A stretch of 64,000 bases of DNA. It comes from Halorientalis sp. LT38 (lineage in GTDB: Archaea > Halobacteriota > Halobacteria > Halobacteriales > Haloarculaceae). Numbering within the stretch: position 1 is the first letter of the stretch; every line of letters begins with the position of its first letter. Below are positions 7,508 to 58,278 of the stretch, piece by piece. A program made the position numbers and the translations under genes. The DNA lies in NCBI RefSeq assembly GCF_037031225.1, contig NZ_JAYEZN010000001.1, positions 3,224,001-3,288,000 on the forward strand. Direction: 5' to 3'. The notes under the pieces were generated by a model. The model worked only from the letters and a program-made list of their open reading frames with translations. It did not search any database and had not been told where the DNA came from.

Positions 7508-7514
7508 CTTTAAG
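7508..7514 (+). promoter_or_regulatory. TATA-like box of the transhydrogenase operon
   Basis: CTTTAAG lies in an AT-rich pocket. Its centre is about 28-30 bases before the ATG of the mini-ORF at 7541 and about 137 bases before the pntA start, so it predicts a leader longer than 100 bases for pntA. Confidence 0.6.
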
Positions 7515-7540
7515 TAGATGCCAAAAAACCGTGTACGTCA

Positions 7541-7651
7541 ATGCGAGAGGAGATACGAAACGACGTTCGGTGGCGCCCACGCCGGGTCGCACAGGTGAAC
7601 GCGATGGGCAGTGTTCGATCGACCGACACGACGCGGGGGCGTTCGACGTGA
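7541..7651 (+). CDS. candidate leaderless mini-ORF coupled to pntA (36 codons)
   Basis: A 36-residue, arginine-rich open frame starting MREEIRNDVRW, in a different frame from pntA. Its ATG sits where the TATA-like box at 7508-7514 predicts transcription to begin. Its TGA at 7649-7651 overlaps the GTG start of pntA at 7648 (GTGA). The peptide resembles no family I know. It may be a leader peptide whose translation delivers ribosomes to pntA, or a chance frame. The same layout recurs at four other loci in this window. Confidence 0.4.
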   Translation: MREEIRNDVRWRPRRVAQVNAMGSVRSTDTTRGRST

Positions 7652-8862
7652 TCGTCGGCGTTCCGACCGAGACGGCCGCGGACGAGCGCCGAGTGGCGCT
7701 CGTCCCGTCGGTGGCGGGCGAACTGGTCGACGCGGGCCACGAGGTCTGCGTCGCGGCCGGCGCCGGCGAGCGGGCGACCTTCGCGGACGAACAGTACGAG
7801 GCGGAGGGCTGCGAGATCGTCGAGGACCGCGAGGCCGTCTTCGAGCGAGCGGACGTGCTCTTCCAGGTCACCGGCCTCGGCGCGAACGACGCCGAGACGG
7901 ACCCCTACACCGATGGGCAGATCGTCGTCGGCCTGCTCGGCCCCTACGACGTCGAGGACGACACGCTCGCGGATCTGGCAGACCGGGACGTCAGCGCCTT
8001 CGCGCTCGAACTGATGCCGCGGATCAGCCGCGCCCAGAGCATGGACGCGCTGTCCTCGCAGGCGAGTCTGGGCGGCTACCATGCGACGCTCCTGGCAGCG
8101 GAGGCCTTGCCCAAGATGTTCCCGATGGAGATGACCGCCGCGGGCACGATCAAGCCCGCAGAGGTGTTCGTCATCGGCGCGGGCGTCGCCGGGCTGAAGG
8201 CGATCGCGACCGCCGAACGCCTCGGCGCGTCGACCAAGGGCCACGACGTTCGCCTCGAGGTCAAACGCGAGGTCGAGAGCCTCGGCGCGGACTTCGTCGA
8301 ACTCGAACTCCCAACCGAGGAATCGGGCGACGCGGAGGGCTACGCCGTCGAGATGGGCGAGGAGTTCTACGCCGAACAGCGCAAACAGATGGAGCGGGTC
8401 GTGCCGGAGTCGGACGTCCTGATCACGACGGCCGCGATCCCCGGCCGGCCGGCGCCCGAGATCGTCACGACCGAGATGATCGAGGAGATGGACGCGGGCT
8501 CGGTGGTCGTCGACCTGGCCGCCGAGACCGGCGGCAACTGCGAACCGACGGAGGCCGGCGAGACGGTCGAGGTCGACGGCGTCTCGGTTCACGGCCCGAC
8601 GGATCTCCCCTCGCGGGTCGCTCACACCGCGAGCAGCCAGTACGCGAACAACCTGCAGAACTTCCTCGACAACCTCAGTGACGAGGACGGCGAGATCGAC
8701 TTCGACTTCGAGGACGAGATCGTCGATTCGACGCTGCTCACACACGATGGCACGGTACGCAACCCACACCTCGACGACGAACCGGACGAGACGGACGAGG
8801 ACGCCGACGGCGACGACGCGGCAGCCGCAGACGGTGACGGAGGTGACGCCGATGCGGAGTGA
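7648..8862 (+). CDS. pntA: NAD(P) transhydrogenase subunit alpha, soluble NAD(H)-binding part
   Basis: A 404-residue domain I of proton-translocating transhydrogenase, which transfers hydride between NAD(H) and NADP(H) coupled to ion translocation. It opens IVGVPTETAADERRVALVP, as in alanine dehydrogenase/PntA proteins, and carries the Rossmann motif VFVIGAGVAGLKAIATAERLG with TTAAIPGRPAPEIV downstream. The last 30 or so residues are an acidic, probably disordered tail that replaces the membrane part found fused in E. coli PntA. The GTG at 7648 is chosen because family homology starts there; the frame is open upstream but the extra residues look non-coding. It is followed after 48 bases by the membrane alpha subunit and then by pntB. 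Confidence 0.92.
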   Translation: MIVGVPTETAADERRVALVPSVAGELVDAGHEVCVAAGAGERATFADEQYEAEGCEIVEDREAVFERADVLFQVTGLGANDAETDPYTDGQIVVGLLGPYDVEDDTLADLADRDVSAFALELMPRISRAQSMDALSSQASLGGYHATLLAAEALPKMFPMEMTAAGTIKPAEVFVIGAGVAGLKAIATAERLGASTKGHDVRLEVKREVESLGADFVELELPTEESGDAEGYAVEMGEEFYAEQRKQMERVVPESDVLITTAAIPGRPAPEIVTTEMIEEMDAGSVVVDLAAETGGNCEPTEAGETVEVDGVSVHGPTDLPSRVAHTASSQYANNLQNFLDNLSDEDGEIDFDFEDEIVDSTLLTHDGTVRNPHLDDEPDETDEDADGDDAAAADGDGGDADAE

Positions 8863-15829: not shown

Positions 15830-15870
15830 CACACGCCGCCGGCCCCCGCCGGCCCGCGCGAGCGAACGTG

Positions 15871-15876
15871 TTAAAT
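15871..15876 (+). promoter_or_regulatory. TATA-like box of the cobT-cbiA operon
   Basis: TTAAAT stands in a GC-rich setting, centred 27-28 bases before the ATG at 15901, which opens a 12-codon mini-ORF. The cobT start lies 29 or 38 bases further on. Confidence 0.6.
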
Positions 15877-15900: not shown

Positions 15901-15939
15901 ATGGAACGAGGACGGCGGGTGAGCCACCCGTGCGCCTGA
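15901..15939 (+). CDS. candidate leaderless mini-ORF coupled to cobT (12 codons)
   Basis: The mini-ORF encodes [12 protein letters not shown]. The ATG sits at the transcription start predicted from the TATA-like box. The TGA at 15937-15939 forms TGATG with the cobT ATG at 15939, and the frame also overlaps the alternative GTG at 15930. It is short enough to arise by chance, but it matches the other four loci in layout. Confidence 0.35.
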
Positions 15940-18300: not shown

Positions 18301-18348
18301 GTGCGCACTCGAATACGCAACGGACGGTCGCGAGGGGGGCACCGGTGA
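18301..18348 (+). CDS. candidate leaderless mini-ORF coupled to the SDR gene (15 codons)
   Basis: The mini-ORF encodes MRTRIRNGRSRGGHR from a GTG at the predicted transcription start. The TGA at 18346-18348 overlaps the GTG start of the dehydrogenase (GTGA). A GAGGGGGG run at 18332-18339, just upstream of the overlap, could help reinitiation on the second frame. Confidence 0.35.
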   Translation: MRTRIRNGRSRGGHR

Positions 18349-21747: not shown

Positions 21748-22317
21748 TTAGACTTCCTCGGCCGGCACGCCGGCAACGGTCGTCTCCGGCGGCACGTCCT
21801 CGGTGACCAGTGAGTTCGCAGCCACCTGTGCGCCCGCGCCGATCTCGACGCCCGGGAGCACGATGGCGCCCGCCCCGATCATCGCCCGCTCGCGGACGAC
21901 GATCTCCCCGGTCCGGTACTCGTCCTGCAGGAACTCGTGACAGAGCAGCGTCGCGTCGTAGCCGACGATGGCGTGATCCTCGACCGTTATCAGTTCGGGC
22001 CAGAACACGTCGGGCGTCGATTCGAGTCCCCAGGAGACCCCCTCGCCGACGGTGACGCCGATCCGGCGCAGCAGCCAGCTCTTCAGCCGGAGACTGGGCG
22101 CGATACGGGCGAGGACGATCACCGCGTAGTTGAGACAGACCACGAGCGGGTTGCGCGCCTCGAGCCAGTGCTGGAGGGAGTTCTTCGGTCCGCCGGTCGC
22201 GTGGACGGTCGTGGCCTCGTGGCGCCCGGGCCGGCCGGTGTCTCCCTCGGCGCCGCCGGTGACGTCCCCATCGGCCGCCCCCGCGCCGGCCGAACCGGGA
22301 TCTGATTCGTCGGTCAC
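21748..22317 (-). CDS. LbH (hexapeptide-repeat) acyltransferase
   Basis: A 189-residue protein with left-handed beta-helix repeats in the C-terminal half (TVEDHAIVGYDATLLCHEF, then RERAMIGAGAIVLPGVEIGAGAQVAANSLV), ending in the DVPPETTVAGVPAEEV cap typical of the family. The N-terminal 55 residues are Gly/Ala/Asp-rich and probably disordered, followed by a helix around NYAVIVLARIAPSLRLKSWLL that may touch the membrane. It probably transfers an acetyl or acyl group to a sugar or small molecule. It is convergent with the dacZ pair and divergent from the GNAT gene. Confidence 0.8.
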   Translation of the reverse strand: MTDESDPGSAGAGAADGDVTGGAEGDTGRPGRHEATTVHATGGPKNSLQHWLEARNPLVVCLNYAVIVLARIAPSLRLKSWLLRRIGVTVGEGVSWGLESTPDVFWPELITVEDHAIVGYDATLLCHEFLQDEYRTGEIVVRERAMIGAGAIVLPGVEIGAGAQVAANSLVTEDVPPETTVAGVPAEEV

Positions 22318-39338: not shown

Positions 39339-39896
39339 TCACAGCGCCCGGTCGCGCCAGGTGAGCAACTCGGCTCTGTCGCGCGTGTCTTCGGGGAGGT
39401 CCGCGAACCAGCGGGCGTCTGAGATCTCGTCGTCCGGGTCCGACACTTCCAGTTCTGTGGTCTCGGCCCGGGCGGCGAACACGGGGAGGACGCCCCAGGC
39501 GTCGTGGCCGTCGCTCCGGAAGTTGACGCGAGCGAGGATGCCCAGCCCCTCGTAGGCGGCCTCGACGCCGGCCTCCTCTCGGAGCTCGCGCCGGGCGCCC
39601 TCGCGCAGGGACTCGTCTCCCTGTACTTCGCCGCCCGGGACGACCCACATGTCGACGCCCTCGTGACGGACCAGCAGGAGTTCCCCGGACTCCCTGTATA
39701 CGAGGGTGTGTGCCCCGAAGGGGAGGCCGTTCTTTCGGATGCGATCGGCGACGGTCCGGAACCGCGACCGTGAGACGGTACGGGTGCGCTCGTACTCGAC
39801 GTAGTCGTCGTGGTCCTGGGCGAGTCGGTGGTAGGCCTGCTCGGCGCGCTGCTCGGCCTCGTCGGCGAGGTACCAGAGGTTGTCGACGGCCGTCAT
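39339..39896 (-). CDS. NUDIX hydrolase
   Basis: A 185-residue NUDIX protein. The Nudix box is GGEVQGDESLREGARRELRE plus EAGV at residues 88-111, with all catalytic Glu residues. The N-terminal 60 residues are helical and Glu/Arg-rich, an extension seen in haloarchaeal members. The substrate (nucleotide, sugar nucleotide or dinucleotide polyphosphate) is unknown. The ATG at 39896 overlaps the stop of a 25-codon mini-ORF (ATGA). The TATA-like box lies 100 bases upstream, so the mRNA is leadered. Confidence 0.88.
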   Translation of the reverse strand: MTAVDNLWYLADEAEQRAEQAYHRLAQDHDDYVEYERTRTVSRSRFRTVADRIRKNGLPFGAHTLVYRESGELLLVRHEGVDMWVVPGGEVQGDESLREGARRELREEAGVEAAYEGLGILARVNFRSDGHDAWGVLPVFAARAETTELEVSDPDDEISDARWFADLPEDTRDRAELLTWRDRAL

Positions 39897-39970
39897 CGTG
39901 GCGAGTCGGTGTGGGCCGGCGGTTGTACGCGATCCGGAGGGGTGACGGGGGAGAGCGAGCGGTCGACCAT
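39893..39970 (-). CDS. candidate leaderless mini-ORF coupled to the NUDIX gene (25 codons)
   Basis: The peptide begins MVDRSLSPVTPPDRVQPPAH and is proline-rich. Its ATG at 39970 is about 29 bases from the centre of the TATA-like box at 39996-40002. Its TGA overlaps the ATG of the NUDIX gene (ATGA). The layout matches the mini-ORFs before pntA, cobT, the SDR gene and tfb. Confidence 0.4.
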   Translation of the reverse strand: MVDRSLSPVTPPDRVQPPAHTDSPR

Positions 39971-39985: not shown

Positions 39986-40040
39986 GGGAACCCGCAATAA
40001 GTCTTCGACACCGTACGACGCTGCCGCGAATCGGGTTCCC
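39986..40040. repeat. 9-bp inverted repeat flanking the NUDIX promoter
   Basis: GGGAACCCG at 39986-39994 and CGGGTTCCC at 40032-40040 are perfect inverted copies on both sides of the TATA-like element at 39996-40002. The first arm is itself nearly palindromic. This may be a regulator site or a cruciform. Confidence 0.4.
39996..40002 (-). promoter_or_regulatory. TATA-like box of the NUDIX transcript
   Basis: The minus strand reads ACTTATT. Spacing points to the mini-ORF ATG at 39970 and not to the NUDIX ATG at 39896. Confidence 0.5.
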
Positions 40041-57191: not shown

Positions 57192-58181
57192 TCAGGCGGC
57201 CGAGGCGTCGTGTTCGGCCTCGAGGAGTTCCTTGTACCGGTTCCGGATGGTGACCTCGGAGATGTTCGCGACCTCCGAGACCGCCGACTGGGTCACCTTC
57301 TCGTTGGTGAGCAGCGAGGCGGCGTAGACCGCTGCCGCGGCGAGGCCGACCGGCGACTTGCCGGACAGCAGCCCGGTGTCACGGGCGCTCTCGAGCAGTT
57401 CCCGGGCCCGGCGCTCGGTCTCGTCGGAGAGGTCGAGGTCCGAGGCGAAGCGGGGAACGTAGCTCTCGGGGTCTGCGGGCTGGATCTCCAGGTTCAGCTC
57501 GCGGACGATGTACCGGTAGGTCCGGGTCATCTCCATCTCGCCGACGCGGGAGACGGCGATCATCTCGTCGATGCTGCGCGGCGTGTTGGCCTGTCGCGCC
57601 GCGGCGTACAGCGAGGCCGTCCCGACGCCCTCGATGGAGCGGCCGGGGAGGAGGTCCTCGTCGAGCGCGCGGCGGTAGATGACGCTGGCCGTCTCGCGGA
57701 CGTTCTTCGGGAGGCCGAGCGCGGAGGCCATGCGGTCGATCTCACCGAGGGCCTGCTTGAGGTTGCGCTCCTTGGAGTCTCGCGTCCGGAACCGCTCGTT
57801 CCAGGTCCGCAGTCGCTGCATCTTCTCGCGCTGGCTGGAGTTCAGCGACCGGCCGTAGGCGTCCTTGTTCTGCCAGCCGATGTTCGTCGAGAGGCCCTTG
57901 TCGTGCATCATGTTCGTCGTGGGCGCGCCCACGCGGGACTTCTCGTCGCGTTCGCTCGCGTCGAACGCGCGCCACTCGGGCCCGCGATCGATCTCGTTTT
58001 CCTCGACGACCAGGCCGCAGGCCTGGCACACCGTCTCACCGTGTTCCGAGTCGGTCACCAGCGAGCCGCTGCACTCCGGGCAGGTCGTCGTCGATTCGGT
58101 CTCCGTCTCGGTCTCCGCCTCGCCGTCGATCTCCTGTTCTGTGCGTTCGTTCGATATCGTCCGGGTTGTAATGTCGCTCAT
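57192..58181 (-). CDS. tfb: transcription initiation factor TFB
   Basis: A 329-residue TFB (TFIIB homologue). The N-terminal zinc ribbon has Cys34, Cys37, Cys52 and Cys55 (CPECSGSL, CQACGLVVEE), then the B-reader/linker with RGPEWRAF and KGLSTNIGWQNKDAYGRSL. Two cyclin repeats follow (about 130-215 and 225-315). The first 30 residues are an acidic halophile tail. Haloarchaea have several TFBs that pair with TBPs. Its ATG overlaps the TGA of a 13-codon mini-ORF, and an inverted repeat lies in its promoter region. Confidence 0.94.
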   Translation of the reverse strand: MSDITTRTISNERTEQEIDGEAETETETESTTTCPECSGSLVTDSEHGETVCQACGLVVEENEIDRGPEWRAFDASERDEKSRVGAPTTNMMHDKGLSTNIGWQNKDAYGRSLNSSQREKMQRLRTWNERFRTRDSKERNLKQALGEIDRMASALGLPKNVRETASVIYRRALDEDLLPGRSIEGVGTASLYAAARQANTPRSIDEMIAVSRVGEMEMTRTYRYIVRELNLEIQPADPESYVPRFASDLDLSDETERRARELLESARDTGLLSGKSPVGLAAAAVYAASLLTNEKVTQSAVSEVANISEVTIRNRYKELLEAEHDASAA

Positions 58182-58219
58182 GGGGGGTGGATTTCCGTGT
58201 TGCCGGTGGCGAAAGCCAT
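58178..58219 (-). CDS. candidate mini-ORF coupled to tfb (13 codons)
   Basis: The mini-ORF encodes MAFATGNTEIHPP. Its stop overlaps the tfb ATG (ATGA). A TATA-like CTTACAAA at 58246-58253 is about 30 bases before its ATG; a stronger candidate box at 58261-58271 would give it a short leader. In either case it is the first frame on the tfb transcript. Chance cannot be excluded. Confidence 0.35.
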   Translation of the reverse strand: MAFATGNTEIHPP

Positions 58220-58278
58220 AAGAAATTACCGGCTTCAGCTAACTCTTTGTAAGTGCGTAAGGCATAAAAGGCTTTCGC
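58209..58278. repeat. 9-bp inverted repeat in the tfb promoter region
   Basis: GCGAAAGCC at 58209-58217 and GGCTTTCGC at 58270-58278 are perfect inverted copies, each next to an AT-rich TATA-like stretch (CCATAAG, GGCATAAAAGG). This may be a regulator site or autoregulatory element of tfb. Confidence 0.4.
58246..58271 (-). promoter_or_regulatory. two candidate TATA boxes of tfb
   Basis: The minus strand reads CCTTTTATGCC (58261-58271), the better match, and CTTACAAA (58246-58253). The first predicts a start near 58239 and the second near 58221. Confidence 0.45.

Follow-up and report, generated by a model that had tools for sequence, protein, structure and literature searches.

Predicted leaderless mini-ORFs that end on gene starts form a conserved layout in haloarchaea, with a probable role in ribosome delivery

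Why would a haloarchaeal promoter point to the start codon of a short ORF that lies out of frame with the gene behind it and ends on that gene's own start? The question is raised by the pntA locus in a 64,000-nucleotide stretch of the genome of the haloarchaeon Halorientalis sp. LT38 (hereafter the window; G+C 68.8%), where the TATA element CTTTAAG starts at -33 from ATG 7541, inside the -33 to -30 range of the genome's leaderless genes. This ATG opens a mini-ORF with the translation MREEIRNDVRWRPRRVAQVNAMGSVRSTDTTRGRST, out of frame with pntA, whose TGA (7649-7651) overlaps the pntA start GTG (7648-7650) in a GTGA overlap. An earlier note on this DNA had described the TATA element, the ATG, the 36 codons and the TGA/GTG overlap, all of which are correct in the sequence, and the four further mini-ORFs that it listed, before cobT, SDR, NUDIX and tfb genes, do exist as ORFs ending on a gene start (Table 1). 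It had proposed that leaderless mini-ORFs load ribosomes, which then reinitiate at the main start, a reading to which we assign a probability of roughly 0.8.

Table 1 Features of the mini-ORF loci in the window.
Feature	Positions	Strand	Basis
TATA element CTTTAAG of the pntA transcript	7508..7514	+	sequence; motif score 4.9
Predicted leaderless mini-ORF (uORF), 36 codons, ATG to TGA	7541..7651	+	ORF translation, relatives
pntA, NAD(P) transhydrogenase subunit alpha, start GTG 7648	7648..8862	+	NCBIfam, Pfam
TATA element GTTAAAT of cobT	15870..15876	+	score 3.2
Predicted leaderless mini-ORF, 12 codons, before cobT; TGATG overlap with ATG 15939	15901..15939	+	ORF, relatives
GTG-started mini-ORF, 15 codons, GTGA overlap with SDR start GTG 18345	18301..18348	+	ORF, two relatives
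NUDIX hydrolase gene downstream of mini-ORF	39339..39896	-	Pfam NUDIX, E 4.9e-16
Predicted leaderless mini-ORF, 25 codons, ATGA overlap with NUDIX gene	39893..39970	-	ORF, ortholog coupling
TATA element ACTTATT of the NUDIX-gene transcript	39996..40002	-	sequence, ortholog spacing
13-codon ORF before tfb; layout present, membership unsupported	58178..58219	-	ORF; promoter score 3.1 (marginal)

The PntA protein matches NCBIfam NF006942 at 386 bits (cutoff 383) as well as Pfam AlaDh_PNT_N/C, and its start position is aligned among relatives. In the LT38 genome the frame upstream of pntA is open to GTG 7531, so that PntA could in principle begin there with a 39-residue extension; however, a TGA closes this frame in the relatives L005 and L006, protein similarity starts at MIVGVP, and GTG 7531 sits 7-10 nt too near the TATA box, which together make a misassigned start highly improbable. 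No SD-like motif lies directly before the window's own pntA start, and RNA structure across this start was unsupported (z +1.67). Separately, the block between the TATA element and the ATG (window 7515-7540, GCCAAAAAACCGTGTACGTCA) is near-identical in five genomes of the genus, including L005-L008, while the mini-ORF diverges; this block is possibly a candidate regulator site.

Comparison among relatives showed that ATG position, frame and overlap persist, and that mini-ORF lengths differ by whole codons. In all eight same-genus genomes the pntA start is overlapped, as NTGA, by the stop of an out-of-frame ORF; in the five genus leaders that can be aligned, the TATA motif begins about 33 nt before the mini-ORF ATG and the ORF keeps 35-37 codons despite much sequence change, and in L009, whose leader is unrelated, a 52-codon ORF likewise ends on the pntA start. 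Across the family (30 pntA genomes, 8 genera, L012-L033 among them) such an ORF was found at 29 of 30 loci, the exception being L015, with lengths of mostly 20-30 codons; the ORF of L013, with 9 codons only and a poor promoter, probably lacks meaning. Leaderless promoter spacing was clear (TATA score of at least 2 at the exact spacing) in 8 of 36 pntA loci and weak outside the core genus, and at several loci a TATA-like block stands some 8-10 nt farther upstream than leaderless spacing. The pntA genes of other families (L274-L278) are without the mini-ORF layout. In L027, from another genus of the family, a preceding SDR-type frame ends with ATGA on the mini-ORF ATG and the mini-ORF ends with ATGA on pntA, forming a two-step stop/start chain; a separate promoter for this mini-ORF is not evident.

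For the ortholog tests, the best TATA-placed ATG of each leader was picked blind to frame. NUDIX is the strongest case among the loci of the earlier note. In 47 of 49 family and order genomes a TATA-placed ATG was found ahead of the main start and separate from it, and 41 of these 47 couple to the gene start through mini-ORFs of 10-53 codons; the three frames are occupied 41:5:1, the couplable frame first, an excess over one third with p = 3e-14, although this value overstates independence because the genomes share ancestry. In 39/39 orthologs with a detected uORF, the TATA motif starts 33-30 nt before its ATG.

The genome sample described below yielded a further case outside the window, an 11-codon mini-ORF before pccB, which encodes an acyl-CoA carboxylase carboxyltransferase (G000:C1:3330478; Pfam Carboxyl_trans) whose protein in the source genome shares 96% identity with its counterparts in Halorientalis persicus and H. 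pallida. Order-wide, 24 of 26 pccB loci with a TATA-placed ATG couple (frames 24:2:0; 7-11 codons), and among 80 named genomes 62 have such an ATG and 56 of the 62 couple (frames 60:1:1); the corresponding frame excesses over one third have p = 5e-10 and p = 2e-26, both with genomes treated as independent despite shared ancestry. The layout was seen in 13 named genera (Haloarcula, Halorubrum, Haladaptatus, Halorussus, Halosimplex and Halovenus among them) and is missing, or replaced by a direct start, in Natronomonas, Halocatena, Halobacterium, Halococcus and Halomarina. Loci without the mini-ORF include L321-L324 and L333 (Natronomonas), L326 and L357 (Halocatena), and L355 and L375 (Halobacterium). 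In several mini-ORF-free orthologs the TATA box stands at roughly the leaderless distance from the gene's own start, so mini-ORF and direct layouts replace each other between lineages.

GC-rich DNA often has long open frames as well as ATGA or GTGA at gene starts, and we therefore weighed chance as an explanation of the layout. Fixed-length shuffles of the spacer still coupled at 0.40 (pntA) and 0.66 (NUDIX), before the 1-in-3 chance of frame, and with frame and length fixed shuffled spacers succeeded at 0.40-0.82; a single instance is therefore unremarkable, and the earlier note likewise took the overlap by itself to be not rare. The same note had held that the combination with a start codon at +1 stands out. 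A sample of 2.06 Mb from four genomes of one family (1,912 called genes) was scanned with a TATA motif learnt from 460 kb of the LT38 genome, where the motif begins 33-30 nt ahead of the start codons of leaderless genes. At the correct spacing, 22 genes had an ATG mini-ORF that ended on their start, compared to 13 at the next 4-nt offset and a mean of about 3.3 elsewhere. When an out-of-frame ATG lay at promoter spacing, its ORF ended on the gene start in about one third of cases (30/87), versus 41/301 at seven shifted spacings (Fisher p = 3e-5), and the stops of correctly spaced ATGs cluster at exactly +1 (29/161). Among 573 ortholog pairs, both members had the layout in 8 at the true spacing and in 0-1 at five control spacings. 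Counts of this kind, like the leader surveys, miss TGATG overlaps preceded by ATGA; those that follow the ORF forward (30/87, NUDIX 41/47, pccB 24/26 and 56/62) are free of this omission. Gene starts were assigned by a custom script, and some main starts are miscalled, given that 74 of the 161 TATA-placed ATGs are in frame with the gene. The excess corresponds to roughly 1-1.5% of the genes with a clear TATA box, and the true share is probably somewhat higher. An excess specific to the spacing, conservation at the true spacing only, and the frame biases given above (41:5:1, 24:2:0 and 60:1:1) argue against chance, which is already refuted for NUDIX and pccB and is very hard to credit as a general account, while it may still explain tfb and, to a lesser extent, SDR.

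At the remaining window loci the evidence was uneven. For cobT, coupling was found in 8 of the 12 family genomes that have a TATA-placed ATG, and other genomes have a direct leaderless start; in the LT38 genome the promoter of cobT fits leaderless spacing less well than those of pntA and NUDIX, and GTG 15930 is an alternative start of the gene. No close orthologs were found for the SDR gene, but in two relatives (L147, L148) a 7-codon ATG mini-ORF ends on its own gene start; the SDR case rests on these relatives because GTG-started mini-ORFs show no spacing-specific excess in the genome sample, and at the window's own SDR locus an in-frame extension from GTG 18291 is possible. The cobT and SDR layouts are thus partially supported. 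The tfb ORF was rejected as a member, with a coupled TATA-placed ATG in 0/30 tfb loci and a marginal promoter, and looks like a chance case. The earlier note's count of five loci out of roughly seven with the same layout was accordingly too high: it holds for pntA and NUDIX, in part for cobT and SDR, and fails for tfb. Several tfb leaders (the window's, L054-L057, L062 and L065) share a stretch around TTATGGCTTTCGCCACCGG, and a GCCGG/CCGGC stem is possible in the window's tfb leader (58182-58256, minus strand), with a fold no better than that of shuffles (z -0.56). Elsewhere in the window, a 14-codon ATG mini-ORF at 22317 (minus strand), MGTFDIRRRRTALS, stops on a gene's GTG and has a marginal TATA score of 3.1.

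If the peptide itself mattered, the mini-ORF could be a small-protein gene, or a leader peptide that senses a metabolite by stalling, in an operon with the main gene. A few sampled matches are indeed ordinary small genes of 55-66 codons preceding another gene (G020), and the mini-ORFs of pntA have greater lengths, mostly 20-52 codons, and resemble one another within subgroups. However, similarity between genera is absent among the mini-ORF peptides, that of NUDIX changing completely from genus to genus, and close pairs show no third-position excess, with changes by codon position of 11/7/6 (NUDIX), 8/5/6 (pntA) and 5/2/7 (pccB). The peptides are also basic and Arg-rich (K+R 0.16-0.21, D+E 0.06-0.13), haloarchaeal proteins being acidic, they have no NCBIfam match, and no repeated regulatory codon was evident in them by eye. 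A leader-peptide attenuator, which needs a conserved peptide or a run of regulatory codons, was rejected as peptides diverge freely and codon positions are unbiased, and a stand-alone small-protein gene, which needs a conserved acidic protein, was rejected as the peptides are neither; we consider any role of the peptide improbable. Given that ATG position, frame and overlap are kept but the peptide is not, translation itself rather than its product appears to matter, and given that the layout is kept across many genera, its probable role is the delivery of ribosomes to the gene. In its conservation, the observation is stronger than the sequence alone could reveal.

The reinitiation reading can be set out as follows. 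Transcription would start on the mini-ORF ATG or a few bases upstream of it, as judged from TATA spacing, and a ribosome would initiate on this 5'-terminal start codon by the main haloarchaeal initiation route. A short peptide, unimportant in itself, would be made, termination would occur at the TGA overlapping the main gene's start codon, and reinitiation would follow on the main start, in some genes aided by an SD-like motif at the mini-ORF end. Selection would then retain the position of the start codon, the open frame and the NTGA overlap, and not the peptide. SD-like motifs were found just before the gene start in 21 of 30 pntA loci, 22 of 25 pccB loci and 6 of 39 NUDIX loci, and, under another SD definition, in 40 of 59 pccB loci of the named set. 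The earlier note had the main genes translated without SD, which holds only in part: NUDIX orthologs rarely have such a motif, and pntA and pccB orthologs often do. In haloarchaeal termination-reinitiation pairs an SD motif near the end of the first ORF is frequent, though not obligatory. Haloarchaeal SD motifs have been reported to be used at gene overlaps and unused at 5'-UTRs (Huber 2019, PMC6728339), which favours reinitiation for pntA and pccB and would leave NUDIX to the overlap alone. With the layout kept, the peptide not kept, the frame rarely wrong and the spacing leaderless, the proposed mechanism is favoured at pntA and NUDIX and, in part, at cobT and SDR, but not at tfb; it is likely to be right for four of the five window loci.

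A 5'-terminal ATG might instead be tolerated, or selected, as a competitor of direct initiation that lowers expression, the overlap merely limiting the damage. In eukaryotes, uORFs usually lower translation of the main ORF, which counts in favour of such damping. Haloarchaeal leadered genes, moreover, tend toward lower expression (Babski 2016, PMC4983044). Yet the mini-ORF is not obligatory, a direct leaderless start being found in some lineages (pccB in Natronomonas and Halocatena, some cobT), and the near-absolute requirement for frame and NTGA, together with the SD-like motifs at some starts, fits delivery better than damping, which we regard as doubtful.

Haloarchaea are without SD use at 5'-UTRs, and our data suggest an answer for a definable set of their leadered genes, in which the leaderless route would operate on a dummy ORF and the ribosome would be handed over to the gene. 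We see even odds that this is a haloarchaea-specific mode of initiation for leadered genes, in which a leaderless mini-ORF free of sequence constraint is selected solely as a ribosome loader in roughly 1-3% of genes, is acquired and lost in exchange for direct leaderless starts, and may be regulated by how efficiently ribosomes reinitiate. As conserved cases, NUDIX, pccB, pntA and cobT make this model directly testable where genetics exist, and gene finders could use the mini-ORF layout to place starts correctly.

Several known systems bear on this reading. In Hfx. volcanii, 72% of protein-coding transcripts are leaderless, and 16 uORFs of 15-31 aa and low pI were described in 5'-UTRs of 150-250 nt, the only length class examined, with overlap or coupling with the gene start undiscussed (Babski 2016, PMC4983044). 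These are likewise small ORFs upstream of haloarchaeal genes, whereas the mini-ORFs described here are basic and lie mostly in leaders of about 25-110 nt. We found no earlier report of the layout as a conserved archaeal leader device or haloarchaeal class in the literature consulted, which covers Haloferax profiling and small-proteome work incompletely, and some uORFs may have prior mention. In E. coli, 70S ribosomes bind an AUG placed at the very 5' end of an mRNA, and the uORF that begins there can affect the downstream gene (Beck 2016, PMC4965119); as far as the part of that paper used here goes, the 5'-terminal start before the gene is alike, while the uORFs are on SD-led bacterial mRNAs and a conserved stop/start overlap is unstated. 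Termination-reinitiation at overlapping genes is proven in Hfx. volcanii, and coupling was strict in all but one of the 14 overlapping pairs examined (Hfx. volcanii 9, E. coli 5; Huber 2019, PMC6728339). Those Hfx. volcanii pairs share the stop/start overlap and the class of organism with our set; their coupling was established by experiment, while that of the mini-ORFs is predicted, and their upstream partner is a full annotated gene, while the mini-ORF seemingly serves only for ribosome delivery. Ribosome delivery by short ORFs is among the functions named as proposed in a 2025 review (PMC12548453). In mycobacteria, coupled small ORFs begin with a leaderless RTG at the 5' terminus of the mRNA and stop at a TGA that overlaps the start of the following gene (RTGA); they are over-represented, conserved in layout but not in peptide, and proposed to deliver ribosomes (Shell 2015, PMC4633059). 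The haloarchaeal mini-ORFs share with this type the RTGA overlap, the conservation of layout rather than peptide, and the over-representation; the mycobacterial arrangement, in bacteria, is supported by 5' ends and footprints from RNA-seq and ribosome profiling, whereas the haloarchaeal set has TATA promoters from whose spacing the 5' ends are predicted, belongs to Archaea, and has its conservation traced over many genera. The haloarchaeal mini-ORF layout is thus an archaeal form of the arrangement known in mycobacteria.
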